Below are positions 2,258 to 23,855 of a DNA stretch of 53,523 nucleotides, in pieces; position 1 is the stretch's first letter; each line of letters begins with the position of its first letter. A program made the translations under genes and the position numbers. The DNA lies in NCBI GenBank assembly GCA_024226935.1, contig JAAELK010000012.1, positions 1-53,523 on the forward strand. Direction: 5' to 3'. This DNA is from Desulfobacteraceae bacterium. GTDB taxonomy: Bacteria > Desulfobacterota > Desulfobacteria > Desulfobacterales > Desulfobacteraceae. The notes under the pieces are model-generated. The model ran no database searches and was not told the origin of the DNA. It was given only the letters and a program-made list of their open reading frames with translations.

Positions 2258-2292
2258 ATGAAAGAACCAATCAACTTATCGGGTTCTTTCAT
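2258..2292. terminator. Hairpin terminator between convergent genes
   Basis: Perfect 11-bp inverted repeat, ATGAAAGAACC and GGTTCTTTCAT, around a 13-base loop, followed by GTTTTATT. It lies after the phosphoesterase gene and before the end of the convergent kinase gene, so it may serve both strands. Confidence 0.6.
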
Positions 2293-2368
2293 GTTTTATT
2301 GTGGGCAAGCCAATGGACCCCTTGGGTGGCCCATGGCCGTTATTAAGACAATTGCTGGTTGACGTCTT

Positions 2369-4930: not shown

Positions 4931-4950
4931 GGTATTTTATCCTCGTTAAT

Positions 4951-7900: not shown

Positions 7901-9051
7901 GTCCTCAGGGCCTTTTGTACCTTGGTATGGGCTTCAATGGATTCGGCCATACCATTGAATGTCCGGGAAAGAATACTGTATTCATTATCGTATGTGATAA
8001 TGGAACGGGCAGATAGATCTCCTGCCTGAATTTTTCTGGCAATTTTGGTAAATTCCATAATGGGTTTTGAAAAATTTATAGCCAGCATATGTGCCAGCAC
8101 ATAGGCAAACAATCCGGAAATCAGGAGAATAATAATTATGTTTACCAGCATCTTCTTGATAGGAGCATAAATTTCTGAAAGGTCCTGCTTGGCAACAAAT
8201 CCCCATCTTGTCTCCGGCAGATATGTATATGAGGCTAAAACATTTATTCCCCGGTAATCCAGAGCTTCTATAACACCAACATTGCCCTGGGAGGCAAGTC
8301 TGGCCGGTTTGGCATCTATTTTTAATTTTAATGGAGCATTTTTATACCATCTCAGGTCATTTAAAGCCATTAAATCTTTGTTGACAATGAGGGTTTCCCC
8401 GGTTTTTCCCATGCCGGTTCGTTGTAAAAGCAGATCGTATAATGAATTTTCAAGATCGATGCGTGCCACCATAATTGCAAATTGTTTTTTCCCATCTAAA
8501 TCCAGGCTGGTGATTGGTATTGCAAAACACATGGCCGGCCTTTTTAATTGTGTGGAATAATAGATATCTCTGATATAAAAGCTTCCTGTCTTTAAAGGTT
8601 CAATAAAATAAGGCTCCTGGGATGCATCCAACCCTTGGGAGGCTTTGTTGGTGGAAATTTGGACAATACCGGTGGCGATATCGATGATAAATACCTCGTG
8701 GTAGGCATGGTATTCTTTTTTAAATGAATCCAGGAAATTTTCTGCGGATAAAATTATTTTTTGATCTTTTTTGGTCTTTTTTTTATGGGTAAACACGGTT
8801 GAAAGATTTCGTATTTCAATATCCTTGGAAATATAATCGAAATCTCTTTTTCTTTCTGCAAGCCAGCTATTTAATTGGGATACCTTGAGATCCCGGATTG
8901 CCGTAAGTTTGCTATAAGCCTCGGTCTTAATGGCAGTGACCCGCTGATAATAAATGGTGGTGCATACGATAATTACAGGAAGTAAAACAGCCGTAAAAAT
9001 CCAGAGTATCATCTGGGATTTAATTTTTTTAAAGCTTAATATTCCTCCCAT
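4951..9051 (-). CDS. Membrane hybrid histidine kinase with dCache sensor and four receiver domains
   Basis: Large sensor kinase. Two membrane segments (about 14-35 and 300-322) flank a periplasmic double-Cache-like region. HAMP, GAF (about 380-540) and a long coiled coil follow. HisKA carries phospho-His 596 (SNMSHELRTPLN) and the HATPase carries DTGIGIA and GTGLGLA. The tail has four receivers with acceptor Asp at 884, 1001, 1138 and 1295. Receivers 2 and 3 resemble each other (both LDLMMPxxDG and TAKxLTPxxxKxL) and lack the Pro after the conserved Lys, suggesting tandem duplication. Such tails usually work as phosphate stores or relays. The neighbouring solute-binding protein is a likely periplasmic input partner. 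Family assignment is firm; the signal is unknown. Confidence 0.9.
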   Translation of the reverse strand: MGGILSFKKIKSQMILWIFTAVLLPVIIVCTTIYYQRVTAIKTEAYSKLTAIRDLKVSQLNSWLAERKRDFDYISKDIEIRNLSTVFTHKKKTKKDQKIILSAENFLDSFKKEYHAYHEVFIIDIATGIVQISTNKASQGLDASQEPYFIEPLKTGSFYIRDIYYSTQLKRPAMCFAIPITSLDLDGKKQFAIMVARIDLENSLYDLLLQRTGMGKTGETLIVNKDLMALNDLRWYKNAPLKLKIDAKPARLASQGNVGVIEALDYRGINVLASYTYLPETRWGFVAKQDLSEIYAPIKKMLVNIIIILLISGLFAYVLAHMLAINFSKPIMEFTKIARKIQAGDLSARSIITYDNEYSILSRTFNGMAESIEAHTKVQKALRTLDKILVTSTTINDFGKKFVEKIIEYTGSAFGSFYLFSPDKKAFEHIFSMGFDMKRLESLNENIIKDAFNKAFTTQKITYIHEISKDTVFTINTIAGTALPRGMVTIPLVIKEQVIGVIAMGTLANYSETAVGILEQIQSGAGTALSNMISAEKTATMAHKLQSNNVELEAQARQLQAVTKNLKQQNTKLDTQSRQLKEVNRLKSEFLSNMSHELRTPLNSIMALSSVLKMNSAQKLTTEEVQYLDVIKRNGKRLLDLINDILDLSKIEAGHMEITLSFFSIKTTIEDLMDSLRLLAREKNLTLRMEFAPDLPKIQSDEKRVHQILLNLISNAVKFTDKGEIAVLADFNDDKICLRIIDTGIGIARKDLPLIFEEFKQVDGSTSRSYEGTGLGLAIAYKATINLGGELSVESKIGGGTTFTLHLPVTWQGQPQPIKPSDTTQPPEMIENRKTILVVDDEPESVDIICDLLCLEGYNTLKATSGTQALALAKTHQPFAVTLDLSMPEMDGLETLQRLKKHPETSDIPVIIVSVSDDKTGLALGAVGHVTKPVISDVLIKEIKKTCVQAFSIMVADDNEFDRKHIIQIITQEKMEAIPVENGKQCIKMIKKKMPDVLVLDLMMPELDGFGVLKTLRSDTLTMSLPVIMVTAKDLTPEEKKRLNQYVVSVLYKNNLTSKKLVEKIKDHLRGLEKPLIPETTQKKQKKKRVLVVEDNKAAIIQIKMILEQEGYHVDIARGGKKAEEFVQDIIPDGIILDLMMPDIDGFDVLDNIRNTKKTANIPVLILTAKNLTPDDLKKLSANNIQQLVQKGNVEREDLLLKVKIMLGEKPKTSSLPVEHTQKTKKAGIKHPKKIPEIARLDKALPTILVIEDNPDNLLTIKAVLKNKYTIMEASDGEKGLAAALQSLPDLILLDISLPGMDGYVITKKIKADERAGRIPVIALTAHAMKGDRDKIISAGCNDYISKPIDPKTVLEVIKKWLEEKL

Positions 9052-9078
9052 TGGTGTCTGCTCCCTTTTAAAAAAAGT

Positions 9079-10224
9079 CTATTGTATATCCCCTGGGTTT
9101 TGGTAGTTGAATTCATCAAGCCTGAATTGCTCCTTATTTAACCATACATTGCCCAGGATTTCTGGCATGAATTTTTGGCGTATCTGGGTCCACAAAGTAG
9201 AAGGAGGTACCTTCTTAATATTGATTAAAAACATCAGCTCCCGGTGCAGAGGACCATCTTCTTTGAGGTCATCTTCGATAATAGCCGGATTTGAGAATTG
9301 CCCTAAAATATCTTTCATGGCAATGGCCGCCAGGTCATCCACCGAGAGATCTATCTTTGTTCCAAATGCCAGTTCGATCGCTGTAATATTCCACCTACAG
9401 GCACGAAGCAGGTTTTGTCTTGCTGCTTGCATCCATCGAATAGCTCTTATTTCGGCAGCCAAAATCTGGGAAACGGCTTTTGGCCGTCTCTGATAAAAGT
9501 CTGTTAGAAAATAGAGAAAACCAAAAGAAAGACGTTGGTGGATAATGGTGGTATCTGGATATTTTTTCAATGCTATTGTGGGGGTCGGCTCCCAGGCGGA
9601 AAAAGCCGTGATTTTGTTTGCATACAGGGCGTCGGGCATTTGTGTGACTTCCATGGGGATCAGTTTTACTTCATTTGTACTCAGTTTTGCCCCTGCAAGT
9701 GTCGTTAACAGGGCATAATGGGCGTTGGATCCGAATGCATAGCCGATACGACTTCCTTCCAGGTCTTCAATTAACATCTGGCGGTTGGCGACAATGGAAA
9801 TAAAGCCCCTTTGAATTATGGCAGGAATTATAATATCAAGATTTGAGGCTGCAGTAAGTGCCGGCATATCCCCTCCGATACCTGCATCAAGATCTCCCAG
9901 GGTAAGAAAAAAATTTACGTCATCTCCCTTGAGAAAATCATAAAAATAAATTTTCAAACCCATTTTCAAAAGTTCTTCTTTTAAAATAGAATCTCTTTTC
10001 AGAGCTTCAACGATAAGGCTGCTGGGCATATATAGAGGTTGAGTCCCGATACGGATAAATTTATCTGTTTTTTTGAATTTATATTTGGAATAAAGGGGTA
10101 GGGGGTCTAAGTTCGGGGTTGAAACAATTACTGTTTTTTTATCGGGCTTTGTGGGCAATATAAATACGATTACCAAAGTTGACAGGCAACAAATTATAAT
10201 AATTTTCCAGTGGATCGGTTTCAT
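9079..10224 (-). CDS. Membrane-anchored periplasmic solute-binding protein (NMT1/SsuA-like) without a transporter
   Basis: Predicted type-2 periplasmic binding protein. The chosen start gives MKPIHWKIIIICCLSTLV, a clean signal/anchor segment, with an AGGA ribosome site eight bases upstream; the frame also runs 34 codons further upstream. The body has the features of sulfonate/nitrate/thiamine-precursor binding proteins, including IRIGTQPLY after the anchor and GSRIGYAFGSNAHYALL in the ligand-cleft region. No permease or ATPase gene is nearby. It lies 7 bases after CheR and 27 bases before the dCache kinase, so it more likely presents a ligand to the kinase than feeds transport. The operon role is inferred; the ligand cannot be read from sequence. 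Confidence 0.75.
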   Translation of the reverse strand: MKPIHWKIIIICCLSTLVIVFILPTKPDKKTVIVSTPNLDPLPLYSKYKFKKTDKFIRIGTQPLYMPSSLIVEALKRDSILKEELLKMGLKIYFYDFLKGDDVNFFLTLGDLDAGIGGDMPALTAASNLDIIIPAIIQRGFISIVANRQMLIEDLEGSRIGYAFGSNAHYALLTTLAGAKLSTNEVKLIPMEVTQMPDALYANKITAFSAWEPTPTIALKKYPDTTIIHQRLSFGFLYFLTDFYQRRPKAVSQILAAEIRAIRWMQAARQNLLRACRWNITAIELAFGTKIDLSVDDLAAIAMKDILGQFSNPAIIEDDLKEDGPLHRELMFLINIKKVPPSTLWTQIRQKFMPEILGNVWLNKEQFRLDEFNYQNPGDIQ

Positions 10225-10231
10225 TATATTC

Positions 10232-11059
10232 CTAGTGAACTTTCTTAAATATATGGCAAAAATCGTTAATTTTTTTGAAATTATCATGAAATTGCCTTGT
10301 GGGCATTTCAGTTTCACCCAACACAAGATACCCGTTTTTATTGAGGGACCGATACAATTTGGTGAGTATTCTATTCTTGTATTGTTTATTATAGTAAATT
10401 AAAATATTCCGGCATAACACAATATCAAAACTGCCATATAAACTTTCCGGTGGGGAATAACCTCTTTTATCCAGAAGATCATAGGTGGAAAAATCCACAA
10501 GTTGTTTGATATTGCCGTTGAGGGAAAATGTATTTCTCCTTTGGATAAAATGCGGTAAATATTCGAACTGGACGTTATTGAGACTTTCTAAGGAGTAAAC
10601 TGCCGTTTTGGCTTTGCGGATGGAATCGGTATCGATATCCGTTGCAAAAATGTGGACAATGGGTTTGGTGGTCATAAACTTTATAAGTTTATCTATTTCC
10701 ATGGCCATTGAATAGGGTTCTTCTCCTGCTGCGCATCCCGCCGACCAGATCCGAAGCGAGGTGGGCTTGATGGTGCCTTGATTAGAAAGCAGTTCTGGAA
10801 GTATTTTGGAGGCGATATAATTAAAAACAAGGGGGTCGCGAAAAAAGCTGCTGACATTGATTATCAGGACTTTAACAAGTTTGTTGATTTCATCGGGATG
10901 GGATTGAAGAAAGTTATAATATTCTGCCAGTGTCCCCAGATTAACTTCGTGTAAACGTTGATCCAGTTGCTGCTCGATTATTGAATGATGGTAACCATAA
11001 AAGTCAATGTCCTGATGCTTAGACAGGTAATTAATAATTTTGTTCAGGTCGCTGAGCAT
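10232..11059 (-). CDS. cheR: CheR-type chemoreceptor glutamate methyltransferase
   Basis: S-adenosylmethionine-dependent methyltransferase that methylates glutamates on chemoreceptors or related signalling proteins. An N-terminal helical CheR domain (about 1-75) is followed by the catalytic fold: RDPLVFNYI, the SAM motif WSAGCAAGEEPYSMAM, the acidic strand IFATDID and the late motif FDIVLCRNILIYY. At 275 residues it is a normal stand-alone CheR. It is first in a four-gene minus-strand operon with a binding protein and two hybrid kinases and no cheA/cheW/cheB. It may therefore modify the receptor-like dCache kinase or a distant chemoreceptor, such as the one encoded at 40175. A AAAGG ribosome site precedes the ATG. 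Confidence 0.92.
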   Translation of the reverse strand: MLSDLNKIINYLSKHQDIDFYGYHHSIIEQQLDQRLHEVNLGTLAEYYNFLQSHPDEINKLVKVLIINVSSFFRDPLVFNYIASKILPELLSNQGTIKPTSLRIWSAGCAAGEEPYSMAMEIDKLIKFMTTKPIVHIFATDIDTDSIRKAKTAVYSLESLNNVQFEYLPHFIQRRNTFSLNGNIKQLVDFSTYDLLDKRGYSPPESLYGSFDIVLCRNILIYYNKQYKNRILTKLYRSLNKNGYLVLGETEMPTRQFHDNFKKINDFCHIFKKVH

Positions 11060-11381: not shown

Positions 11382-11954
11382 ATGGAAGATACGTTGACTG
11401 TATTTACGGCAAGCAAGTACTGCAATGTTTCGTCTAAAACCATTATCAACTGGGTAGAGGCCGGTCATATTAAAGCTTATAAGACTGTGGGAGGGCATCG
11501 CAGGATTAAAAAGTTAGACCTTGAATCCTTTATGAGAAATCAGGGAATTCCTATTCCCCAGGGAAAAGACGACAGCAGCAAAAAAAAGATACTGGTGGTT
11601 GACGATGACATGATTATTGTTGAATCCATCGTCCAGGCATTGGAGGAAGATGAATTTGATTATGAGGTTATCTCGGCTTCCGATGGTTTTGAGGCAGGAC
11701 TTCAGGTGAACCATTTTAACCCGGATCTTTTGATCCTCGATATCATGATGCCGGATATTAAAGGTTATGAAGTTTGTAAAAAGATCAAGACCAACAAAAA
11801 AACTAAAAATACGAAGATTATTGTATTATCGGCCTACCTGGATGATGAAAAATTTGCACAGATGAAAGAAAATGGTGCGGATGTCTGCCTTTCCAAACCC
11901 TTGCCGCTCCCCCAGCTCAAAGATGAAGTAGCTAAATTGCTTGGATTAAAATAA
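11382..11954 (+). CDS. Response regulator with N-terminal excisionase/MerR-type HTH and C-terminal receiver
   Basis: Residues 1-55 form a small winged-helix DNA-binding domain of the excisionase/MerR class (TASKYCNVSSKTIINWVEAG, then KTVGGHRRI). Residues 68-190 are a receiver with DDD at its start, acceptor Asp120 (LLILDIMMP) and the conserved Lys in LSKPLP. This order is the reverse of most response regulators, in which the receiver precedes the DNA-binding domain. No kinase sits next to it on this strand, but the two hybrid kinases read divergently 320 bases away. It lies 14 bases before the MetF-like gene with strong ribosome sites for both, so it probably belongs to, and may control, the Hdr/Met operon. 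That regulatory role is inferred from position. Confidence 0.85.
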   Translation: MEDTLTVFTASKYCNVSSKTIINWVEAGHIKAYKTVGGHRRIKKLDLESFMRNQGIPIPQGKDDSSKKKILVVDDDMIIVESIVQALEEDEFDYEVISASDGFEAGLQVNHFNPDLLILDIMMPDIKGYEVCKKIKTNKKTKNTKIIVLSAYLDDEKFAQMKENGADVCLSKPLPLPQLKDEVAKLLGLK

Positions 11955-11968
11955 GAAGGAGGCAGATT

Positions 11969-12847
11969 ATGAATTTGAAGGAATCTTTGGAAAAAAAGAG
12001 ATTTGTTGTGACCTCTGAAATTCAGGCTCCCCTTGGTAATGATGAACCCGAATCCTTGATCGAAAGTTTAAAAAGAATTAAGGGACGCGTAGATGGGGTA
12101 TCTGTTTCGGAAGTAGAACTTGAAGGGGTTGTGGGAGACAGTATTAAAACCTGTGATCTTTTAAAACAAAATAATTTTAATGCCATTTACCAGACCACCA
12201 CCCGGGATAAAAACAGGTATCAGCTTCAAAAAGACCTGACCCTTGCCCATGAAACCGGGGTAGAAAATCTTCTGGTCTTTACAGAAGATTACCGGATTTC
12301 AGGCGATACCCTTCAAGAATCCATGTTTTTCCATGTGGATTCGGGAAAATTAGGATCTGTTCTGGATCATCTTAAATTAGGGATGACCATTGAAGGCAAG
12401 GAGATGGATAGTAAAATAAATTTTATGCTGGGTTCTGGTATTGAAACTCCCTGGGGACGAAATATGCCCAAGCAGGGTATGGAAGAGATGGAAGATATGC
12501 TTAATGTGGGGGCAGGCTATTTTTTAACCACCCCCATATTTGATGTGGATCAGTTTGAAAAGTTCATGAAACAGGTGGCACCTTTCAGGATACCGGTTAT
12601 AGCAGAGGTGATGATTCTTCGTACCGCCGGCATGGGTAAATTTTTAAATCGTCATTTTAAATCAGGCCTTGTTCCTGAACGGGTAATCCAGAAAATGTTG
12701 AAAGCACCGGACAAAACAAAGGCAAGTATTGAGCTTTTTGCTGATACAGTCAACAGTCTTAAAGATATCTGCCAGGGTGTTCACATTATTACCATTGGCG
12801 GAGAGGATAAGCTGGGACTATATCTTAATGCGGCCAAATTAAGATAG
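11969..12847 (+). CDS. Divergent MetF-like (methylene-THF reductase fold) protein
   Basis: A 292-residue protein with the beta/alpha-barrel pattern of 5,10-methylene-tetrahydrofolate reductase. The early catalytic-type Glu is kept (TSEIQAP). Two other signatures present in the full MetF at 20015 are altered: the LSGDH flavin/folate segment reads VFTEDY, and the Gln-containing TQ segment reads TTPIFD. It may be a structural subunit, a reductase for another pterin-bound or C1 compound, or a scaffold linking folate chemistry to the Hdr module. It precedes the HdrC/D-like gene by 12 bases and has an AAGGAGG ribosome site. Two MetF homologues at the two ends of one cluster is unusual. Family membership is fairly sure; activity is not. 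Confidence 0.75.
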   Translation: MNLKESLEKKRFVVTSEIQAPLGNDEPESLIESLKRIKGRVDGVSVSEVELEGVVGDSIKTCDLLKQNNFNAIYQTTTRDKNRYQLQKDLTLAHETGVENLLVFTEDYRISGDTLQESMFFHVDSGKLGSVLDHLKLGMTIEGKEMDSKINFMLGSGIETPWGRNMPKQGMEEMEDMLNVGAGYFLTTPIFDVDQFEKFMKQVAPFRIPVIAEVMILRTAGMGKFLNRHFKSGLVPERVIQKMLKAPDKTKASIELFADTVNSLKDICQGVHIITIGGEDKLGLYLNAAKLR

Positions 12848-12859
12848 GGGAGAGCGTCA

Positions 12860-14146
12860 ATGGCAGAGGCAATTAGAATTGATATCCTGGATATTGAATT
12901 TAAGGAGGAGGTGCTTGATAAAGTACCGGATGCAAATTTTGATTTGTGCTTGACCTGTGGCACGTGTACCGGCGGGTGTCCTGCATCGGAACAATTTGAT
13001 ATGGACCCAAGAAAATTGATTAGAATGCTGAACCTGGGAATGGATGAACAAATTATTAAAAGCGAATGGAAATGGGTATGCAGTATGTGCGGGCGTTGTG
13101 TATTAGCCTGTCCCATGAAAGTCAATGTTCCCGCCTTGATTTTTAATTTGCGGGCAAGTGTTCCCAGGGAAAAAAGACCCAAGGGAATCCTAGGTTCTTG
13201 TGACCAGCATATCAGGACCGGGTCAGCCATGGGGGCCAAAAAAGAAGATTTTGAATTTACTGTCCTGGATGTGGCAGAAGAGATCCGGGAGGACCATCCT
13301 GGATTTGAAGATCTGTTTGTCACGGTGGACAGGGAAGGTGCCGGGATGGTCTTAAATCAAAATTCCCGGGAACCTGTCACTGAACCCGAGGAGATGGGTC
13401 CTTTGTGGAAAATTCTCCACACGGTCGGGGCTGACTGGACCTACCCGTCGGTGATGTGGGCCGGTGAAAATTATTGTATGTTCATGGCCGACAACGAGGG
13501 ATGGCGTTATATTATTGAGGAGTTTGTTCACCATGTGGACAATAATTTGAAAAGTCCCATGGTGGTTAATACCGAATGAGGCCACTCATATTTTGCAATC
13601 CTGGAAGGGTTGCGTAAGTTTAATATCCCCCATAAATTTGAATTAATTACCATTATAGAACTCTATGCCCAGTGGATCAGGCAGGGAAAATTAAAAGTCA
13701 ATTCGGATTGGAACAGGTCAATAGGAGCCAAATTCACGGTCCAGGATCCTTGTAATATAGGTCGTAAAAGCGGATCCAACAAGATTGTGGATGAGCTGCG
13801 GTTTGTGGTTAAAACCGTGGTGGGAGAAGAAAATTTTATAGATACTGTGCCAAACAGGGAGAATAATTTTTGTTGCGGCGGCGGCGGAGGAGCTCTTCAG
13901 GCCGGATTCCAGGACCAGCGACGGGCTTATGGCAGGACTAAGTTTAATCAAATTATAGCCACAGGGGCCACCTATATAATTGCTCCTTGTCATAATTGTC
14001 ACGGGCAGATTGAAGATATTGGTGAGTATTATGGCGGTAATTACCACGTGGTCCATTTGTGGACCATTATCTGTCTGGCCATGGGTATGTTGGCGGATAC
14101 TGAACGAACCTATCTTGGTCCGGATTTGGCCCAATTAGGGTTATAA
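12860..14146 (+). CDS. Selenocysteine-containing HdrC/HdrD-like iron-sulfur protein (TGA at 13577 read as Sec240)
   Basis: Read through the in-frame TGA at 13577-13579, this is one 428-residue protein. The N-terminal half has two 4Fe-4S ferredoxin motifs, C30-C33-C36-C40P and C74-C77-C80-C84P, as in HdrC/GlpC. The C-terminal half has one CCG domain fitting Cx39CCGx36CxxC exactly: C298, C338-C339-G340, C377-C380, the signature of HdrB/HdrD. The TGA sits in a TE-Sec-GHSYF context, where relatives are expected to have Cys-Gly-His. No new start or ribosome site is needed for the second half. A 7-bp hairpin starts 15 bases after the TGA. It probably passes electrons between the HdrA fusion downstream and a thiol or protein partner. 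Alternatives are a frame-preserving nonsense mutation or two genes, both less likely given the matching Sec protein downstream. Confidence 0.85.
13577..13613 (+). promoter_or_regulatory. Putative bacterial SECIS element for Sec240
   Basis: TGA at 13577-13579 followed by a stem GCAATCC/GGGTTGC (13595-13601 with 13607-13613, one G-U pair) and a TGGAA loop. The distance from UGA and the coding location suit a SelB-recognised bacterial SECIS. Confidence 0.65.
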
Positions 14147-14176
14147 AGAGTCGGGCTGTAAAAAAGGAGGGATGCA

Positions 14177-17100
14177 ATGGCTCAAAAAGGTAATGGGTCG
14201 GTAATGGTAGTCGGTGCCGGCATCGCTGGTATTCAAGCCTCTCTGGATCTGGCAGATTCAGGATATCTGGTTTATTTGATAGATAAAAATACAGCCATTG
14301 GCGGAACAATGGCACAATTAGACAAAACATTTCCCACCAATGATTGCTCCATGTGTATAATTTCACCCAAATTGGTTGAAGCAGGTCGTCATTTAAATAT
14401 TGAACTGCTCACCATGACCCAGATCGAATCAGTGACAGGGGAGGAAGGGGATTTTACTATTACCTTAAAAGAAGAGCCAAGGTTTATAGATCCTGAAAAA
14501 TGTACAGCTTGCGGGGAATGTTCCACAATCTGCCCCGTGGAATTGCCCAGCCAGTTTGATGAAAATTTAAGGGACAGGAAAGCTGCTTTTAAACTGTATC
14601 CACAGGCAATGCCTTCCGCTTTTGCCATAGAAAAAAAAGACAAGGCTCCCTGTCGCCTGACCTGTCCCGCTGGACTTAATGTCCAGGGTTATGTTCAGAT
14701 GGTTAAAGAGGGAAAATTTAAGGCATCATTGGAAATTATAATGGAACAGCTCCCTTTGCCAGGCGTGCTTGGCAGGATCTGTCCCCATGAATGTGAGGAT
14801 GCCTGCCGCCGATGTCAAGTGGATGAACCTGTGGCCATAAGGGATCTGAAACGAATGGCCGCCGATAATTTTGATCCCCGTGAAATTGAGATCACCTGTG
14901 CCGAAAAAATCGGCAAAAAAGTGGCCATCGTAGGATCGGGGCCGGCCGGGCTCTCTGCCGGATATCATCTGGCAAAAAAGGGGGTGGATGCCACCATATT
15001 TGAAGCTTTGTCCCAGGCCGGCGGTATGTTGAGGGTCGGTATTCCCGATCACAGGCTGCCCAGGGAGATCCTGGACAAGGATATTGAAGTGGTCACCAAT
15101 TTGGGTGTTGAGTTAAAACTTAATACCCGGCTGGGTAAAGATTTTACAGTGGACAGTCTGCTGGCAGATGGATACGATGCTGTGTTTTTAGCCCTTGGTG
15201 CCCATGGGGGTATAGAATTGGCAATTCCCGGTGAAGAATTTGACGGGGTCCGCCAGGGAGTTGATTTTTTGAGGGAGCTTAATCTCACCGGCACCACAAA
15301 AGTGGGCAAAAAAGTGGGTATCATCGGCGGCGGCAACGTGGCCATTGATGTGGCAAGATCGGCTCTTCGTCTGGGTGCCCAGGAAACCACCATCCTTTAC
15401 CGCAGGACCCGAAGGGAGATGCCGGCCTGGGAAGAAGAGATCTGTGCCGCACAAATCGAGGGGGTAAATATCATTTATCTGGCAGCCCCCCAGGAAATAC
15501 TGGAGGAAAATGGGAAGGTAGCAGGTGTCCGGGTCATTAAGATGGAATTGGGGGAACCCGATTCTTCCGGCAGGCGTCGTCCTATTCCTGTTCCCGGCAG
15601 TGAGTATATCATCGAAATTGACCAGCTCATCCCGGCAATCGGTCAGCGCCCGGATCTGTCGGCCTTAGGAGATCAATCAGATCTGGCAGGTCTGAAAATA
15701 AGTAAATGGAACACCACCGAGGTGAATCCTGTCACCCTGGCAACGGACAGAAAAGGGGTTTTTGCCGGAGGTGATGTCCAGACAGGACCCGGGGTTGCCA
15801 TATCCGCCATTGCAGCAGGTCTGGAAGCGGCCCAGTCCATTCTTCGGTATCTGACAGGTATGGACATGGAAGCCGATAGGCAATTGCCAATTGTACAAGA
15901 GCTTGAATATCGACCCGTGGAAGCCGATACCAGGATTGAGCACCGGTACAAAATGCCGGAACTTGCCGTGGCACAACGCTCTGGTAATTTTAATGAAGTT
16001 GAACTTGGGTATGGGATGGAAGAGGGGAAAAAGGAAGCGGCCCGGTGTCTGAACTGCGGATATTGTTCCGAGTGCATGCAATGCGTGGAAGCTTGTCTTG
16101 CCGATGCCGTGGACCATTTCATGCTTGGAAAACAACATATTATCGATGTGGGGGCTATAATATTGGCACCGGGATTTACCCCCTTTGAGCCCACCCAGAT
16201 GGTCACCTATTGTTATGGCCACAGCCCCAATATTATGACCAGTCTGGAATTTGAGCGGGTACTTTCTGCATCAGGGCCCTATGGAGGGCATCTGGTGAGG
16301 CCTTCGGACAAAAAAGAACCCAAAAAGATTGCCTGGCTCCAATGCGTTGGTTCCAGGGATATCAATAAGGGGGATCATTCCTATTGTTCCGGGGTCTGTT
16401 GTATGTATGCCAATAAACAGGCCGTGATTGCCAAGGAACACAGTGCCAAGGATCTGGACGCCGCCATATTTTTCATGGATATGAGAACCCACGGAAAAGA
16501 GTTTGATAAGTATAATATCCGGGCTGCCGATGACAACGGGGTCCGCTTTGTCCGGTCCAGGATCCATTCGGTATTTCCGGAACCAGGGGATAAATACAAG
16601 ATTATTTATTCCACGGAAGCCGGTAATTGTGTGGAGGAAATTTTTGATATGGTGGTGCTGTCCATAGGATTATCATCCAATAAAGATGCAAAGATTCTGG
16701 CTGATAAAATGGGTATTGAACTCAATGACCATGGGTTTGCGCAAACCTCAAATATTTCTCCTATTACCACCACTAAAAAGGGGATATACGTCTGCGGTAC
16801 CTTCCAGGAACCCAAGGATATCCCACTTTCGGTTATGGAGGCTTCTGCGGCAGCTGCTGCCGCCACCATGGCCATGACCGATGATAGATGGTCCCGGACA
16901 AGAGTTCGTGAACTTCCCCCGGAAATTGATTTTTCAGGGCAGGTTCCCAAAATCGGTGTCTTTGTCTGTAATTGCGGGATTAATATTGGGGGTGTGGCCG
17001 ATGTGCCGGCTGTCCGGGATTATGCCGCTACCCTCCCCCATGTGGTCCATGTGGAAGATAACCTTTTTACCTGTTCCCAGGATTCCCAGGATCATATGAA

Positions 17101-18634
17101 GCAGGTGATCATGGAACACGGGATTAATCGGGTGGTGGTGGCTTCCTGCTCACCCCGGACCCATGAACCTTTGTTCCAGGAAACCATCCGGGATGCTGGT
17201 TTGAACAAGTATCTTTTTGAAATGGCCAATATCCGGGACCAGAATACCTGGGTACATATGAATGAGCCGGAAAAAGCCACGGCCAAGGCCAAGGATCTTG
17301 TCCGCATGGCCGTTGCCAAGGCAGCCTTTGTGGAACCTTTGCATCGGGTCAGTCTTGATATTAAAAAGGCGGTTCTGGTGGTGGGGGGAGGCGTGGCCGG
17401 GATGGAAGCAGCTTTAGGGGCAGCAGCCCAGGGAGTTGATGTCCACCTGGTTGAAAAATCCGGTGTTCTGGGCGGAATTGCCCGGCAGTTGAATAGCACT
17501 TGGAAGGGAGAATCCATCCAGGCCTATCTGGCAAACCTGGTTGAACAGATAAAGGGTTGTGAAACCATAAATCTTTATACCGAGGCCCAGGTTGTCGCTA
17601 CCACGGGATCCATGGGTAATTTTACCACGACGATTGCAGTTGGGGGTAGGCACTTGCCCCCAAATGAGATTAAAATTGAACACGGGGCGGCTATTATAGC
17701 CACCGGCGGCATGGAATATAAACCCCGGGAGTATATGTATGGGGATCATCCCGATGTCCTCACCCATTTAGATATGGATGCTGCCCTAAGAGAAGAAGAT
17801 GTAAGTGTTACCACGGCCCGTGCCATTATTTTTGTTCAATGCGTGGGCTCCAGAAATGAACAAAATCCCTATTGTTCCAAGGTTTGCTGTACCCATAGCC
17901 TGAAATCGGCCATTGCCTTAAAAGAGATGGATAAAAGAAAACGGGTCTATGTGGTGTACCGGGATATCAGGTCCTATGGGTTCAGGGAAGACCTGTATCA
18001 AAAAGCCCGGGAACTGGGGGTTCTTTTTGTTCGGTATGACCTGGAAAAAATGCCTGTTCTCAGAAAGGACGGGGAAGGCCGGCTGGAGTTTATAGTCATT
18101 GACCATGTGCTCCAGATGCCGGTGAAAATAAACCCGGATCTTGTGGTCCTGGCTTCCGGTGTGGTGCCAGGGGATAACAAGGCTTTGTACGAAAAATTCA
18201 AGGTGCCGGTGAATAATGAAGGATTTCTGGTGGAGGCACATGCCAAGCTGCGTCCCGTGGATTTTGCTTCCGACGGACTGTTTGTGGCGGGTCTTGCCCA
18301 TTATCCCAAACCCATTGAAGAGAGTATTGCCCAGGCAATGGCGTCGGTGGCCCGTGCCATGACCATTTTGTCACGGGATTCACTTATGGTGGGTGGGGTT
18401 GTGGCAGATGTCACCAAGGAAAAATGTGCCGTCTGTCTGACCTGTGTTCGGACCTGTCCCTATAATATACCCCACATTCATGCAGACGGGTATGCCCAAA
18501 TTGCCCCTTCCGAATGTCATGGATGCGGGGCCTGTGTGGCGGAATGTCCGGGTAAGGCCATTAAACTGAACCATTTTACCGACCAGCAGATCATTGCTAA
18601 AACCGATGCCCTCTTCGAGGAGGCGGCATCATGA
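14177..18634 (+). CDS. hdrA: Giant HdrA-GltD-HdrA fusion flavoprotein (candidate electron-bifurcating subunit)
   Basis: 1485 residues holding three flavin units. (1) An HdrA-type FAD fold, G13xGxxG, with ferredoxin motif C109-C112-C115-C119, split by (2) a complete GltD/NfnB-like NAD(P)H oxidoreductase. That insert has Fer4_20-type cysteines C159, C163, C202, C206 and C210, an FAD site GSGPAG at 253-258 and an NAD(P)H site GGGNVAIDV at 384. HdrA then resumes with a Cys cluster at 624-640 and CVGSR...CSGVCC (723, 737-742). (3) A second HdrA half follows: C931/C933, FAD site from G1070, CVGSR...CSKVCC (1222, 1233-1238), and two C-terminal ferredoxin motifs starting at C1417 and C1447. It resembles the large HdrL-like proteins of sulfate reducers. 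It probably couples NAD(P)H, ferredoxin and the Met/Hdr partners. Both CVGSR repeats keep Cys, so this protein has no Sec. Confidence 0.9.
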   Translation: MAQKGNGSVMVVGAGIAGIQASLDLADSGYLVYLIDKNTAIGGTMAQLDKTFPTNDCSMCIISPKLVEAGRHLNIELLTMTQIESVTGEEGDFTITLKEEPRFIDPEKCTACGECSTICPVELPSQFDENLRDRKAAFKLYPQAMPSAFAIEKKDKAPCRLTCPAGLNVQGYVQMVKEGKFKASLEIIMEQLPLPGVLGRICPHECEDACRRCQVDEPVAIRDLKRMAADNFDPREIEITCAEKIGKKVAIVGSGPAGLSAGYHLAKKGVDATIFEALSQAGGMLRVGIPDHRLPREILDKDIEVVTNLGVELKLNTRLGKDFTVDSLLADGYDAVFLALGAHGGIELAIPGEEFDGVRQGVDFLRELNLTGTTKVGKKVGIIGGGNVAIDVARSALRLGAQETTILYRRTRREMPAWEEEICAAQIEGVNIIYLAAPQEILEENGKVAGVRVIKMELGEPDSSGRRRPIPVPGSEYIIEIDQLIPAIGQRPDLSALGDQSDLAGLKISKWNTTEVNPVTLATDRKGVFAGGDVQTGPGVAISAIAAGLEAAQSILRYLTGMDMEADRQLPIVQELEYRPVEADTRIEHRYKMPELAVAQRSGNFNEVELGYGMEEGKKEAARCLNCGYCSECMQCVEACLADAVDHFMLGKQHIIDVGAIILAPGFTPFEPTQMVTYCYGHSPNIMTSLEFERVLSASGPYGGHLVRPSDKKEPKKIAWLQCVGSRDINKGDHSYCSGVCCMYANKQAVIAKEHSAKDLDAAIFFMDMRTHGKEFDKYNIRAADDNGVRFVRSRIHSVFPEPGDKYKIIYSTEAGNCVEEIFDMVVLSIGLSSNKDAKILADKMGIELNDHGFAQTSNISPITTTKKGIYVCGTFQEPKDIPLSVMEASAAAAAATMAMTDDRWSRTRVRELPPEIDFSGQVPKIGVFVCNCGINIGGVADVPAVRDYAATLPHVVHVEDNLFTCSQDSQDHMKQVIMEHGINRVVVASCSPRTHEPLFQETIRDAGLNKYLFEMANIRDQNTWVHMNEPEKATAKAKDLVRMAVAKAAFVEPLHRVSLDIKKAVLVVGGGVAGMEAALGAAAQGVDVHLVEKSGVLGGIARQLNSTWKGESIQAYLANLVEQIKGCETINLYTEAQVVATTGSMGNFTTTIAVGGRHLPPNEIKIEHGAAIIATGGMEYKPREYMYGDHPDVLTHLDMDAALREEDVSVTTARAIIFVQCVGSRNEQNPYCSKVCCTHSLKSAIALKEMDKRKRVYVVYRDIRSYGFREDLYQKARELGVLFVRYDLEKMPVLRKDGEGRLEFIVIDHVLQMPVKINPDLVVLASGVVPGDNKALYEKFKVPVNNEGFLVEAHAKLRPVDFASDGLFVAGLAHYPKPIEESIAQAMASVARAMTILSRDSLMVGGVVADVTKEKCAVCLTCVRTCPYNIPHIHADGYAQIAPSECHGCGACVAECPGKAIKLNHFTDQQIIAKTDALFEEAAS

Positions 18635-18671
18635 CACAAATTTTTTTTATCAGGATAAATGGAGGGTTGAT

Positions 18672-19142
18672 ATGAACCAGGAAGTTAAACTTCAAGAAGT
18701 TAAACTCCAAGAATTTGAACCCAGAATAATTGCCTTTTGCTGCCAGTACTGAGCCTATGCAGCTGGGGACCTGGCAGGTTCCATGAGACTTTCCTATTCT
18801 GCTGATATAAAGATTATTCAGGTGCCGTGTACAGGAAGGGTGGATATTCTTCACCTGCTCAATGCCATCGAGGATGGTGCTGATGGGGTTTATGTGGCAG
18901 GATGTCTTGAAGGGGAATGTCATTATATAGAAGGCAATTTTAAGGCCCGACGGAAGGTGGATCATGTGAAAAAAATTCTCCTGGAACTTAAAATCGAACC
19001 CGAACGGGTGGAAATGTATAATCTTTCTTCAGCCCAGGGGGCAAGGTTTGCCCAGATTGCCAACGAAGTGGCCGAAAAGATAAGAGCCCTTGGCCCCACA
19101 CCGGTTAGAACTCCAACGGTTCAAAAGCCTACAGCCCCATGA
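18672..19142 (+). CDS. mvhD: MvhD/FrhD-type [2Fe-2S] electron-transfer subunit with selenocysteine (TGA at 18750, Sec27)
   Basis: Small iron-sulfur protein that links HdrA to its electron donor in Mvh-Hdr and MetVF-Hdr-Mvh complexes. Starting at the ATG after GGAGGGTTGAT, the frame runs 26 codons to a TGA at 18750-18752 and continues to a stop at 19140. Recoded, the N-terminus reads IIAFCCQY-Sec-AYAAGDLAG, the conserved start of the family, where Cys or Sec occupies this position. The conserved VPCTGRVD and GCLEGECHY segments follow. Total 156 residues, the family's usual length. Starting at the later ATG (18783) would remove the cluster-binding N-terminus. The first 16 residues contain a short repeat (EVKLQEVKLQEFE). 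It directly follows the HdrA fusion, its expected partner. Confidence 0.93.
18750..18782 (+). promoter_or_regulatory. Putative bacterial SECIS element for MvhD Sec27
   Basis: TGA at 18750-18752, then a 7-bp stem GGGACCT/AGGTTCC (18766-18772 with 18776-18782, one G-U pair) around a GGC loop. It starts 13 bases after the codon, close to the spacing of the element at 13577. Confidence 0.7.
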
Positions 19143-19300
19143 ATGGTATGATAATCAATACTCTTGTACTCGGCAGACAGCCGGGGACAGGATTAAATAA
19201 CCGCCATGGGCGGACCAGGGATTGTGCCCTTGGTTCCGCTCACAACAAAGATTGAAACTCTCTTTTGATATCGGGAGTTTCATATAAATAGAGGTGATAA
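19143..19300 (+). promoter_or_regulatory. Structured leader between mvhD and metV
   Basis: 158-base gap in an otherwise tight operon. Three foldable units are visible. CCGCC-ATG-GGCGG lies at 19201-19213. An overlapping, longer stem at 19210-19239 pairs GCGGA, CCA and GGG with CCC, TGG and TCCGC and has two single bulged T residues. A TGAAACTC/GAGTTTCA stem lies at 19253-19282, just before the ribosome site AGAGGTG. The first two are mutually exclusive, as in an RNA switch. I do not recognise a known riboswitch. Confidence 0.45.
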
Positions 19301-19978
19301 ATGATAGTTGCTGATAGAAAATCCCTTGAAGAGATATTGGCCATGGTGGCAGATAATAAAAAAATTCTCATCCTCGGATGTAAAGGATGTGTTACTGTCT
19401 GCAATGTGGGGGGACTCAAGGAGGTCGAAATTTTGACATCTTCCTTGAAAATTGCCAGAAAAAAGTTGGGAAAACCGCTGGATATTGATATCCAGGTGTT
19501 GGAAAGACAATGTGATAATGAATATGTGGCAGAACTTTCTGAGTCGGTGAATGATTATGATGGGGTGATTTCCATGGCCTGTGGGGTGGGACCCCAGTTT
19601 TTGTCTGAAATGTATAAAACTCAAGTTTTTTATCCGGCCGTGAATACCACCTTTTTTGGCGGGGCGACCCAACATGGGGTTTGGGAAGAAAGATGTGCCG
19701 GTTGTGGTACCTGTGGTATTCATATGTTTGGCGGGCTTTGCCCCATTGCAAGGTGTGCTAAAAGCCTGCTCCATGGTCCCTGTGGCGGATCATCCGAGGG
19801 TATTTGCGAGGTAAATGCAGATACCGAATGTATCTGGGATTCCATTGTGAAAAAGAAAATGGAAGCGGGGCAATTGGAAGATCTCATGGGCGTCAAAGGT
19901 TTGAAGGACTGGACAACTGCCAGGGATGGTGGCCCTCGAAGAAGTATCAGGGAAGAACTGGTTCAGGGTAAAATTTAA
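19301..19978 (+). CDS. metV: MetV, iron-sulfur/zinc partner of methylene-THF reductase
   Basis: MetV is the small partner of MetF in acetogens and other Wood-Ljungdahl organisms and connects MetF to other redox modules. The N-terminal half has GCKGCVTVCNVGG (two or three cluster-ligand Cys) and SMACGVGPQ. The C-terminal half has a dense Cys block (ERCAGCGTCGI, GGLCPIARCAKSLL, GPCGG) typical of the MTHFR C-terminal/MetV family, probably binding 4Fe-4S clusters and zinc. Length 225 residues is normal. It is followed 36 bases later by metF. In Moorella the order metF-metV-hdrCBA-mvhD defines a multi-subunit MTHFR complex; the same components occur here in another order. Confidence 0.9.
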   Translation: MIVADRKSLEEILAMVADNKKILILGCKGCVTVCNVGGLKEVEILTSSLKIARKKLGKPLDIDIQVLERQCDNEYVAELSESVNDYDGVISMACGVGPQFLSEMYKTQVFYPAVNTTFFGGATQHGVWEERCAGCGTCGIHMFGGLCPIARCAKSLLHGPCGGSSEGICEVNADTECIWDSIVKKKMEAGQLEDLMGVKGLKDWTTARDGGPRRSIREELVQGKI

Positions 19979-20014
19979 GAAATGTTTTAATCCATATCAA
20001 GGAGAGATCTTAAA

Positions 20015-20947
20015 ATGAGTGAACTTAAATCCGGCAGTAATCTTGAAAAAGTTCTCACGGCTGGTCACTTCGCATTTACGGGGGAATGTGGACCTCCCAA
20101 GGGTGCCAATACAAAACATCTTCTGGGAAAATTTAAATACTTAAAGGGTAATGTAGATTGTGTAAATTTAACCGATAACCAGACTGCCGTGGTGAGGATG
20201 TCTTCTCTGGCAGCTTCCTCTCTCATGGTGGGCCAGGGTTTGGAACCTAATTTTCAAATGGTCTGTAGGGATAGAAATCGCCTGGCCATGATGAGTGACA
20301 TTCTTGGCGCCCATGCTTTGGGGGTTCGGAATATGCTCTGTCTTTCCGGTGATCACCAGTCATTTGGTAACCATCCCCAGGCTAAAAATGTTCATGATAT
20401 CGATAGTATGCAGCTTATTGCCATGGTCAAAAAGATGCGCGATGAGGGAAAGTTTATGAATGGTGATGACATCGATGTCCCTCCGGAAATGTTTATTGGT
20501 GCCGCCTGCAATCCCTTTGCAGACCCATATGAATACAGGGTGTACAGGCTTGCCAACAAGATTGAAGCAGGTGCTGATTTTATCCAGACCCAATGTATTT
20601 TTAATATGGAAAAGTTTAGAGATTTTATGAAAAAAACGGTGGACATGGGACTCCATGAAAAATCTTATATCCTGGCCGGGGTTACACCCATGAAAAATGC
20701 AGGCATGGCTAATTTCATGAAAAAATTTGTACCGGGCATGGATATTCCCGATGAATTGATTAATCGGCTCAAAGGGGTAGAAAAAAAAGATCAGGCAGAA
20801 GAAGGAATTAAATTTGCCCTGGAACAGGTGGAAGAGTTTAAGGCAATGGAAGGGGTGGCAGGGGTCCACATGATGGCCATTGAATGGGAGCACAGGGTGC
20901 CTGAAATTGCCAAGCGGGCCGGGATGTTGCCAAGACCCGTGGTCTGA
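20015..20947 (+). CDS. metF: Methylene-tetrahydrofolate reductase catalytic subunit
   Basis: FAD enzyme interconverting 5,10-methylene-THF and 5-methyl-THF, a step of the methyl branch of the Wood-Ljungdahl pathway, run reductively for CO2 fixation or oxidatively for acetate oxidation. Recognisable parts are the catalytic Glu in FTGECGPPKG, LTDNQ, the flavin/folate segment LSGDH, AACNPFADP and the substrate Gln in FIQTQCIFN. It has no NADH-binding or SAM-regulatory domain, as expected for a MetVF-type enzyme that takes electrons through MetV. It is the last gene of the Hdr/Met operon, with ribosome site AAGGAGA. At 310 residues the length is normal. Confidence 0.93.
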   Translation: MSELKSGSNLEKVLTAGHFAFTGECGPPKGANTKHLLGKFKYLKGNVDCVNLTDNQTAVVRMSSLAASSLMVGQGLEPNFQMVCRDRNRLAMMSDILGAHALGVRNMLCLSGDHQSFGNHPQAKNVHDIDSMQLIAMVKKMRDEGKFMNGDDIDVPPEMFIGAACNPFADPYEYRVYRLANKIEAGADFIQTQCIFNMEKFRDFMKKTVDMGLHEKSYILAGVTPMKNAGMANFMKKFVPGMDIPDELINRLKGVEKKDQAEEGIKFALEQVEEFKAMEGVAGVHMMAIEWEHRVPEIAKRAGMLPRPVV

Positions 20948-22166: not shown

Positions 22167-23855
22167 ATGGCTGAAATCCTTGTTGATTTATTGGTAAATT
22201 ATGAACAGCGTGGGGTTTTGAAAAGACTGGCAACCTCCATGCCGGATGTCACCCTCAATGCCCGGCAGATTTGTGATTTTGAATTGTTAGTCACAGGTGT
22301 GTTTTCCCCTCTCAGGGGTTTTATGACACAGATTGATTGCGAATCTGTCATGGACCGAACACGCCTGTCTTCTGGTGAAGTTTGGCCCCTTCCTATTTGT
22401 CTTGATGTTGGTGAGCTCTTTGCTATGACCCTGGAGGTCGGTCAGTCGGTAATTCTGCGCGATCCCGAGGGGTTCCCCCTGGGAATTATGGAAGTTGAAG
22501 ATATCTGGCCCGTTGACGTAAAAAAAGAAGCACTTGCTGTTTACGGCACCCTGGATCGGACCCACCCCGGGGTGGATTATCTGTTTAATAAATCTGGACA
22601 ATATTATATTGGCGGTACTATTCAGGCGCTCAATTTGCCCATTCATTCCGATTTTAAACAGATCCGCATGACCCCCAGGCAAGTGCAAGATACCTTTGCC
22701 AAACTTGGATGGAAAAGGATTGTGGGATTTCAGACCCGGCAGCCCATTCATCGTCCCCAGTTTGAAATGACCATCCAGGCCATGGGAAGAGCAAAAGCTA
22801 ATCTCTTGCTTTTGCCCATTACCGGAACACCACGGCACGGTGAGTTTGACCATTACACAAGGATGCGCTGCTACCAGAAAGTGGCTTCCCAGTATCCGCC
22901 TAACTCTTATATGTTGAATTTGTTGCCCCTGGCCACGCGTATGGCCGGTCCTAGAGATGCCGTTCTTCATTTGATCGTCGGGAAGAATTTTGGGTGTACT
23001 CATTTTGTTGTTGGCCATAACCATTCAAGTCCAGGCAAAGATAGTAACGGCACACTTTTTTATCATTTTGATCAGGTTGCAGCCTTAGTCAAAGAGGCAG
23101 GGGCAGAGCTTGGGATAGAGGCTGTTTCATTTGAGGAGATGGTGTATCTTCCCTTTGAAGATGAGTTTAAATTGGCTACCAATGTTAAAGAGAATCAGGA
23201 AACCATCTCCTTTTCAAATGAAGATATAAGAAACCGGATTCGTCTGGGTAAAAAAATTCCAAAATGGGCCAGTTTTCCAGCCGTCATAGAGGAGTTGGAC
23301 AGGTCTTACCCTTCTCCTTCAAAACAAGGATTTGTCATATTTCTTACCGGTCTTTCAGGAGCCGGTAAATCAACAATTGCCAAGGTACTCTATTCAAAAT
23401 TTATGGAAATAGGCACCCGCCCGGTGAGTCTTTTGGATGGTGATATTGTTCGTCGAAATCTTTCCTCGGAACTCAATTTTTCAAAGGAACACCGGGATAT
23501 CAATGTGAAGCGTATCGGATTTGTAGCTTCTGAAATAGCTAAAAATCGTGGAATTGCCATTTGTGCTCCCATTGCTCCCTATGAAAAAACAAGGGCGGAT
23601 ATTCGTAAAACCATTGAAGCCCACGGCGGTTTTTTTGAAATTCATGTGGCAACCCCCATCGGTGAATGCGAAAAAAGAGATAGGAAAGGCATGTATGCCA
23701 AGGCCAGGGCCGGACTGTTAAAAGGGTTTACCGGCGTGGATGATCCCTATGAGATCCCGGTAAATCCTGAACTTAGTATCGATACCACTAACATTACTCC
23801 AGATGAGGTTGCCCAGGAAATTTTGCTGTTATTGTGCGAAAAAAGATTTGTATAA
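22167..23855 (+). CDS. Bifunctional ATP sulfurylase / APS kinase (PAPS synthesis)
   Basis: N-terminal ATP sulfurylase (about 1-380) joined to C-terminal APS kinase (about 385-562), predicted to turn sulfate and ATP into APS and then PAPS. The kinase half is intact: P-loop GLSGAGKST at 395-403, LLDGDIVRRNL, and FVEIHV/DPYEIPVNPEL-type ends. In the sulfurylase half the QTRxPxHR motif is present (QTRQPIHRPQ), but the second His of HxxH is Gln198 and the usual GRDHAG segment reads GHNHSSPG. Activity of that half may be altered. It lies 97 bases before rmlA in the same direction. PAPS for sulfating a polysaccharide is the likely use, rather than dissimilatory sulfate reduction, which would use a single-domain Sat. 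Confidence 0.88.
   Translation: MAEILVDLLVNYEQRGVLKRLATSMPDVTLNARQICDFELLVTGVFSPLRGFMTQIDCESVMDRTRLSSGEVWPLPICLDVGELFAMTLEVGQSVILRDPEGFPLGIMEVEDIWPVDVKKEALAVYGTLDRTHPGVDYLFNKSGQYYIGGTIQALNLPIHSDFKQIRMTPRQVQDTFAKLGWKRIVGFQTRQPIHRPQFEMTIQAMGRAKANLLLLPITGTPRHGEFDHYTRMRCYQKVASQYPPNSYMLNLLPLATRMAGPRDAVLHLIVGKNFGCTHFVVGHNHSSPGKDSNGTLFYHFDQVAALVKEAGAELGIEAVSFEEMVYLPFEDEFKLATNVKENQETISFSNEDIRNRIRLGKKIPKWASFPAVIEELDRSYPSPSKQGFVIFLTGLSGAGKSTIAKVLYSKFMEIGTRPVSLLDGDIVRRNLSSELNFSKEHRDINVKRIGFVASEIAKNRGIAICAPIAPYEKTRADIRKTIEAHGGFFEIHVATPIGECEKRDRKGMYAKARAGLLKGFTGVDDPYEIPVNPELSIDTTNITPDEVAQEILLLLCEKRFV

Follow-up and report, generated by a model that had tools for sequence, protein, structure and literature searches.

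A conserved operon of Hdr-type subunits, two predicted selenoproteins and an altered MetF paralogue: a probable variant of the type IV methylene-tetrahydrofolate reductase

A contig of a Desulfobacteraceae bacterium (GenBank assembly GCA_024226935.1, contig JAAELK010000012.1; the whole stretch of 53,523 nucleotides is called the window below) encodes a row of genes in which two homologues of the methylene-tetrahydrofolate (methylene-THF) reductase MetF flank electron-transfer subunits of the heterodisulfide reductase (Hdr) type. What does such an assemblage catalyze, and what is its second MetF for? We find it to be a real conserved operon and consider that it likely encodes a version, in this phylum (Desulfobacterota), of the type IV (Hdr-type) methylene-THF reductase; physical association, coupling, direction and the role of the leading MetF homologue (MetF1) are the parts that we infer. 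This reading draws on the recurrence of the whole seven-gene order, the parts shared with Moorella and Sporomusa, the catalytic residues of the second MetF (MetF2), the Glu/Lys pair of the first HdrA copy (HdrA1), the presence of FolD, FTHFS, CODH and ACS in the genome, the co-occurrence of MetF1 with ACS, the retention of MetV-MetF behind an alternative, Nuo-type electron module, and the evidence for selenocysteine (Sec). The features, in window coordinates, are:

11382..11954, + strand: response regulator (RR) of the helix-turn-helix (HTH)-receiver type, with Pfam matches to an N-terminal HTH_17 (excisionase/MerR-like) domain and a receiver domain
11969..12847, + strand: MetF1, 292 amino acids (aa), a paralogue with the MTHFR fold that has TTP where TQ is expected and lacks a Gln183 equivalent
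12860..14146, + strand: HdrCD, 428 aa, HdrD-type iron-sulfur protein with 4Fe-4S dicluster and CCG domains, predicted Sec240
13577..13579, + strand: UGA predicted to encode Sec in HdrCD (TGC in loci L041, L047 and L048)
13594..13614, + strand: Sec insertion sequence (SECIS)-like hairpin of HdrCD, apical GGA
14177..18634, + strand: HdrL, 1485 aa, consisting of the HdrA1 N-terminal half, a GltD domain, the HdrA1 C-terminal half and a second HdrA copy (HdrA2)
14642..15865, + strand: GltD-type NAD(P)H/FAD domain within HdrA1, from domain searches
16940..18634, + strand: HdrA2, with two C-terminal 4Fe-4S motifs
18672..19142, + strand: MvhD (FlpD family), predicted selenoprotein, from domain searches and UGA comparison
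18750..18752, + strand: UGA predicted to encode Sec in MvhD (Cys codon in nine other rows)
18766..18782, + strand: SECIS-like hairpin of MvhD, apical GGC
19301..19978, + strand: MetV, Pfam PF12225 (MTHFR C-terminal)
20015..20947, + strand: MetF2, 310 aa, catalytic MetF of the MetVF type with the Glu28, Asp120, Lys172 and Gln183 equivalents kept

By open reading frame (ORF) and domain searches of the window, the six genes MetF1, HdrCD, HdrL, MvhD, MetV and MetF2 follow one another on the plus strand with gaps of 12, 30, 37, 158 and 36 bp, the longest preceding MetV, while the RR (190 aa) ends 14 bp 5' of the MetF1 start. The Pfam and NCBIfam matches are MTHFR for both MetFs, Fer4_8 and CCG for HdrCD, HdrA, GltD-type and HdrA2 for HdrL, and FlpD for MvhD. 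A scan limited to consensus found no plus-strand terminator-like site inside the operon gaps, and an Rfam scan of the window gave no matches at gathering scores. The original prediction, made from the letters of the DNA, had named these genes in this order on one strand, and the ORFs and domain matches bear this out.

To see how far this arrangement persists, we took the best 80 loci, mainly from Desulfobacterales, out of 297 relatives recovered by an HdrL search, placed their genes by tblastn and counted the 41 with full flanks, using identity floors of 60% for RR, MetF1 and HdrCD, 40% for MvhD and MetV, and 50% for MetF2. The complete order RR-MetF1-HdrCD-HdrL-MvhD-MetV-MetF2 recurs in 20 of these 41, mostly in Desulfobacterales, the group in which the original prediction had suggested looking for it. 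Because the whole order recurs, and because both in-frame TGAs recur alongside Cys homologues, the arrangement is not due to chance. The RR lies upstream of MetF1 in all 26 full-flank loci with MetF1, as well as at every further MetF1 match that was placed. Two cultured species, Desulfospira joergensenii and Desulfocicer vacuolatum (L026, L034), carry the full operon, which makes it testable. As a separate observation, L046 and the locus L125 described below have a PAS histidine kinase just 5' of the RR.

The closest characterized counterpart is the type IV enzyme MetVF-HdrCBA-MvhD of Moorella thermoacetica and Sporomusa ovata (PMC9430772, PMC5861303, PMC8760232; here and below the published systems are compared through excerpts of the reports). 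Like it, the operon encodes a MetF, MetV, MvhD and an HdrA; the type IV traits that its sequence displays are the MetF-MetV core, an HdrA with a flavin and an NADH site, and MvhD. The doubled HdrA with its own NAD(P)H domain, initially put forward as a departure from Moorella, turned out to be a likeness, since the Moorella HdrA has the same HdrA-GltD-HdrA plan (PMC9430772), with E696/K750 where HdrL has E693/K747. Glu693 and Lys747 correspond to E356 and K409 of PDB entry 5odc, the pair that flags the bifurcating flavin, and both are kept in 14 of 14 aligned HdrA1 sequences. HdrA2 has Asp1201/Lys1243, hence Asp/Lys rather than Glu/Lys, with Asp at the flagged Glu position in 10 of 14 sequences and Ala or Gly in the other 4, so that the Glu/Lys pair of HdrABC-type bifurcation is present in HdrA1 only. 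HdrL also shows the architecture by which this family is recognized, namely an HdrA with an inserted GltD domain and mvhD as the next gene.

The operon departs from type IV in having one HdrD-type selenoprotein in place of HdrC and HdrB, a MvhD that carries Sec, and the addition of the Gln183-less MetF1 and the HTH-receiver regulator. It is on account of the HdrB/HdrC replacement that we call it a variant rather than a strict member. HdrCD scores best on the models of HmcF, TmcB and DsrK, all HdrD-type and every one below its curated cut-off; it reaches 59.9 bits as HdrC (cut-off 160) and 29.9 bits as HdrB (cut-off 345), and thus does not qualify as separate HdrB and HdrC. The earlier description of it as an "HdrC/D" fusion of HdrB and HdrC was therefore right in recognizing a single fused Sec subunit that differs from Moorella, but its best models place it with HdrD. 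Likewise, the second MetF homologue at the head of the set is present and a real difference from Moorella, but it has lost Gln183 and forms a separate clade.

Among sulfate reducers, Desulfobacterium autotrophicum HRM2 has comparable HdrL proteins, in which an HdrA/glutamate-synthase fusion is followed by MvhD, with Sec in Hdr (HdrD) proteins and in MvhD (PMC2702500). There, HdrL1 precedes dsrABC and formate dehydrogenase (FDH) genes occur at several Hdr loci, whereas a link between HdrL and MetVF is not mentioned in the excerpts of that report (PMC2702500). The metF-HdrABC set of Seep-SRB1g, likewise a sulfate reducer, combines metF with adjacent Hdr genes and was proposed to be a bifurcating reductase (PMC10553843); the excerpted text mentions neither a GltD fusion nor Sec nor a second MetF.

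The two Sec subunits of the original prediction are upheld by three lines of evidence. With repeat fetches of the same gene omitted, the HdrCD site is TGA in 43 rows and TGC in three (one more apparent Cys match, from L086, proved spurious), and the MvhD site is TGA in 36 rows and a Cys codon (TGC or TGT) in nine. Using the window's own fold as the template, hairpin pairing is retained in 96% of cells in the Sec versions of HdrCD (42 of 43 rows tested) and in 100% for MvhD (31 of 36), against 67% in the Cys homologues of HdrCD (3 of 3 loci) and 55% in those of MvhD (7 of 9); slid controls gave 33-48% for HdrCD and 15-72% for MvhD. The apical loop reads GGA or GGT across the HdrCD rows and GGC across those of MvhD. 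The support for the SECIS elements thus comes from the comparison of Sec versions with Cys homologues rather than from folding energy, as energies and z-scores of these regions against shuffles were unremarkable. Finally, the Sec machinery searched for in the genome, SelB and tRNA-Sec, was detected with 357 bits (cut-off 242) and 76.9 bits (gathering score 47), respectively. Given the Cys homologues, the hairpins kept only in Sec versions, SelB and tRNA-Sec, we conclude from sequence comparison that both UGAs encode Sec. A third Sec at the C-terminus of HdrL was ruled out, the TGA that closes its frame being a genuine stop: relatives stop with TAA, TAG or TGA and show no conserved extension.

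We then asked what distinguishes the two MetFs, numbering residues by alignment to E. coli MetF. Glu28, Asp120, Lys172 and Gln183 are each kept in 91 of 91 rows of MetF2-type proteins, some of whose genes were fetched more than once. MetF1 (62 rows, one locus being counted twice) keeps Glu28 in 61, the remaining one being gapped, and Asp120 in all 62; position 183 is Thr in 61 rows, including the window copy, and Asn in one, with Pro invariably next, and position 172 is Met or Leu in every row instead of Lys. MetF1 hence belongs to the MTHFR family by fold and by a PF02219 match above cut-off, while lacking the pterin-binding Gln183. The E. coli enzyme binds the pterin through this residue, and its Gln183Ala mutant shows a Km for methylene-THF increased by a factor of more than 250 (PMC11094777).

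In a tree built with FastTree and rooted with E. coli MetF, MetF1 and the catalytic MetFs form two monophyletic groups (support 1.0 each). The MetF1 clade is joined (0.949) by nine other MetF-like proteins that have Asn (five), Pro (three) or Thr (one) in place of Gln183; in eight cases the gene that follows directly encodes HdrL or HdrA, and in the ninth (L076) such a gene lies about 6.6 kb downstream, whereas four divergent MetFs that do not head Hdr genes (L007, L008, L034, L092) retain Gln183. The AlphaFold2 model of MetF1 has a predicted local distance difference test (pLDDT) score of 85, and 50 of the 50 PDB matches shown are MTHFR. Its ratio of nonsynonymous to synonymous substitution rates (dN/dS) is 0.034-0.073 in five of six pairs, one being saturated, which points to purifying selection although dS near 2 makes the values rough. 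A pseudogene was accordingly rejected, given the low dN/dS and the absence of internal stops from the listed rows. These residue patterns suggest that MetF1 is probably not a second ordinary reductase.

What MetF1 does instead is illuminated by its neighbors elsewhere. Of 389 genomes in the order to which the window belongs, 141 have a MetF1 match at E <= 1e-60, and we fetched 18 of its loci without a listed adjacent HdrCD, hand-picked and mostly on longer contigs. Sixteen show the order RR-MetF1-NuoG-like-NuoE-NuoF·GltD, 15 of them continuing to MetV-MetF and one (L151) not; the other two have HdrC, HdrB, HdrA, MvhD and MetV behind MetF1 (L154), or HdrA and then the contig end (L148). The first Nuo-module loci, L125 and L126, likewise have the full Nuo order including MetV-MetF, and in one genome (G282) an operon of the window type is succeeded by one of the Nuo type, which continues past the contig end (L159, L160). 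Altogether, RR-MetF1-Nuo operons were recorded at L125, L126, L141-L147, L149-L153, L155-L158, L166, L171, L173 and L174, and partially at L165 and L167.

A phylum-wide search with MetF1 listed matches in 57 of 297 genomes at E <= 1e-45, the weaker rows being ordinary MetFs, and 20 loci were fetched from it, all outside the window's order. Ten encode MetF1 at 46-70% identity, all with the RR and all without Gln183 (eight Thr, two Pro). Nine of the ten have an electron module behind MetF1, none being detected at L168. The other ten loci comprise eight MetV-MetF pairs of the ordinary kind, with Gln183, and two in which a Gln183-less MetF stands before HdrC-HdrB-HdrL-MvhD: L181 with Thr, and L184 with Gly at position 183, a locus that aligns less reliably and has about 2 kb between this MetF and HdrC. 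The pattern therefore extends to loci that played no part in its discovery. The modules seen behind RR-MetF1 are thus HdrD-HdrL-MvhD, HdrL-MvhD, HdrCB-HdrA-MvhD or NuoG-NuoE-NuoF·GltD, usually with MetV-MetF at the end.

The Nuo module resembles the Sporomusa-type Nfn StnABC, in which NuoE, NuoF, NuoG and GltD modules lie beside metVF (PMC7483475); GltD is fused to NuoG in Stn but to NuoF in the MetF1-linked module, which is found outside the window. We considered and rejected the possibility that the NuoG-like subunit is an active FDH: the closest structures in the PDB are alpha subunits of FDHs, but a Cys-His pair that we take to be catalytic is replaced in the alignment.

Taken together, these contexts suggest that MetF1 is probably a constant accessory subunit derived from MetF, which would serve as an adaptor, structural or flavin-carrying, that joins the electron module to MetVF. 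A bolder proposal, which we offer only tentatively, is that MetF1 founds a phylum-wide class of repurposed MetFs that, with the loss of Gln183, abandoned normal turnover of methylene-THF and became fixed adaptors or gates plugging different bifurcating modules into MetVF; conceivably, MetF1 is even where the second acceptor of type IV enzymes is to be sought. The persistence of MetF1 across swapped electron modules is, to us, the most interesting part of the operon and offers a concrete handle on it. The Gln183-less clade, its RR and the module swap were not found described in the literature searched, although the searches were not aimed at Gln183-less MetF as such.

Elsewhere in the genome, contig C310 encodes FolD, FTHFS, CODH, ACS, corrinoid-protein subunits and a pterin-binding methyltransferase, and a MetF search found no match on it. 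Across the order, ACS is present in 116 of 141 genomes with MetF1 against 166 of 248 others (Fisher p = 0.0014), and in 74 of 79 against 95 of 122 among good-quality genomes (p = 0.0028), both statistics ignoring ancestry. The host is presumably a sulfate reducer, judging from its relatives and the neighboring ATP-sulfurylase. Two additional MetVF-Hdr clusters occur in this genome (L089 on contig C253 and L090 on C528), one with HdrL-MvhD and one in which a Gln183-less MetF heads a GltD-less HdrA. Independently of this, the HdrL frame of L089 opens only within the N-terminal half, possibly owing to another Sec codon.

In the mechanism we envisage, MetV-MetF2 would be the site of interconversion of methylene-THF and methyl-THF, hydride would pass between NAD(P)H and the GltD domain of HdrL, and bifurcation would take place at the HdrA1 flavin with its Glu693/Lys747 pair, which would split or merge electrons exchanged by NAD(P)H, the MetVF site and a carrier resembling ferredoxin; the HdrD-type Sec protein and Sec-MvhD would connect HdrL to MetVF. 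A sulfate reducer with the Wood-Ljungdahl pathway might run this toward methyl-THF in CO2 fixation or, with electrons merging, toward methyl-THF oxidation. The reaction proposed for Moorella, 2 NADH + methylene-THF + oxidised ferredoxin(?) -> methyl-THF + reduced ferredoxin(?), lies near -5 kJ/mol (PMC5861303), so close to equilibrium that either direction is possible, and acetate oxidation would need the reverse. The operon hence bears on how complete-oxidising sulfate reducers drive methyl-THF oxidation uphill and on the second partner of Hdr-type methylene-THF reductases; it supplies a conserved parts list for one group, with MetF1 and the RR as added constant partners.

Several observations weigh against this reading. 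RR-MetF1-HdrCD-HdrL occurs without MetV and MetF2 in 6 of the 41 full-flank loci (one of the six with MvhD), HdrL-MvhD-MetV-MetF2 without MetF1 and HdrCD in 8 (four of which are headed by another MetF-like protein), and HdrL-MvhD without any Met gene in 7. At L083 (12383-15704), HdrL-MvhD is followed by genes for a pair of Fe-S proteins and for an FAD/NAD reductase of the DHODB type, a set that we read as Flx-like, and L058, L059 and L066 have ORFs matching that set, by length only. ACS was not seen in 25 of 141 genomes with MetF1, or in 5 of 79 good ones. HdrA2 has Asp1201/Lys1243 where Glu1204/Lys1246 is reported in Moorella. Moreover, no oxidation of NADH with methylene-THF was obtained with the Moorella complex, whose second acceptor is still to be identified (PMC8760232), and whereas Sporomusa pull-downs tied MetF to HdrA, HdrB and MvhD, a tight complex could not be purified and MetV as bait did not bring down HdrB (PMC9430772). 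The split loci and the Flx-adjacent ones together indicate that HdrL is a reusable module and that the operon halves are separable. The original prediction had named a conserved tie of the Hdr genes to another pathway as telling against it, and such a tie exists in part, through the Flx-like neighbors and the six loci lacking MetVF; its methylene-THF reductase complex of MetFV, Hdr and MvhD is sustained by the parts, their conserved order, the pathway genes and the HdrA1 pair, and is weakened by those same six loci. Loss of MetVF from the split genomes was rejected as an explanation, MetV-like matches being present in 17 of 17 genomes searched. The best MetV in four of eight split genomes lies in HdrL-MvhD-MetV-MetF2 (three) or in MvhD-MetV-MetF2 at a contig end (one); in one split genome, G007, the best MetV is just 48% identical.

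This separability invites the view that the operon encodes two enzymes, with MetF1-HdrCD-HdrL(-MvhD) working on its own as an oxidoreductase linked to NAD(P)H, possibly with DsrC or a similar thiol partner as its substrate, and MetV-MetF2 a separate reductase. The first half standing alone, the second half with an HdrL of its own, and the affinity of HdrCD to HmcF, TmcB and DsrK would all suit it; but both halves are contiguous in the 20 complete loci, and other operons headed by MetF1 have a NuoEFG-like rather than an Hdr module before MetV-MetF, so we regard this view as unlikely. An equally improbable account in our view is electron transfer without bifurcation, in which HdrL merely links NAD(P)H, HdrCD and MetVF: type IV bifurcation has been proposed rather than demonstrated (PMC8760232, PMC9430772, PMC5861303) and HdrA2 lacks the flagged Glu throughout, yet HdrA1 retains Glu and Lys in every aligned sequence. 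Less probable still is that MetF1 is a genuine second pterin reductase for another substrate or one-carbon carrier, giving an operon with two one-carbon reactions, for its fold, Glu28 and Asp120 equivalents and purifying selection are set against the near-uniform replacement of Gln183 and Lys172 and the Km effect of the E. coli Gln183Ala mutant (PMC11094777).

Beyond the preferred type IV variant, the surroundings of the operon merit brief mention. The RR adjoins a divergent minus-strand block (2276-11059) encoding two large hybrid sensor kinases and a CheR protein. Downstream of the operon are a mechanosensitive channel and a fused ATP-sulfurylase/APS kinase (22167-23855). A DDE transposase (7-1164) marks the contig edge, and an ORF at 45957-47516, with a putative start codon, combines an N-terminal PHP match with a C-terminal RNase III/dsRNA-binding domain in an unusual-looking fusion.

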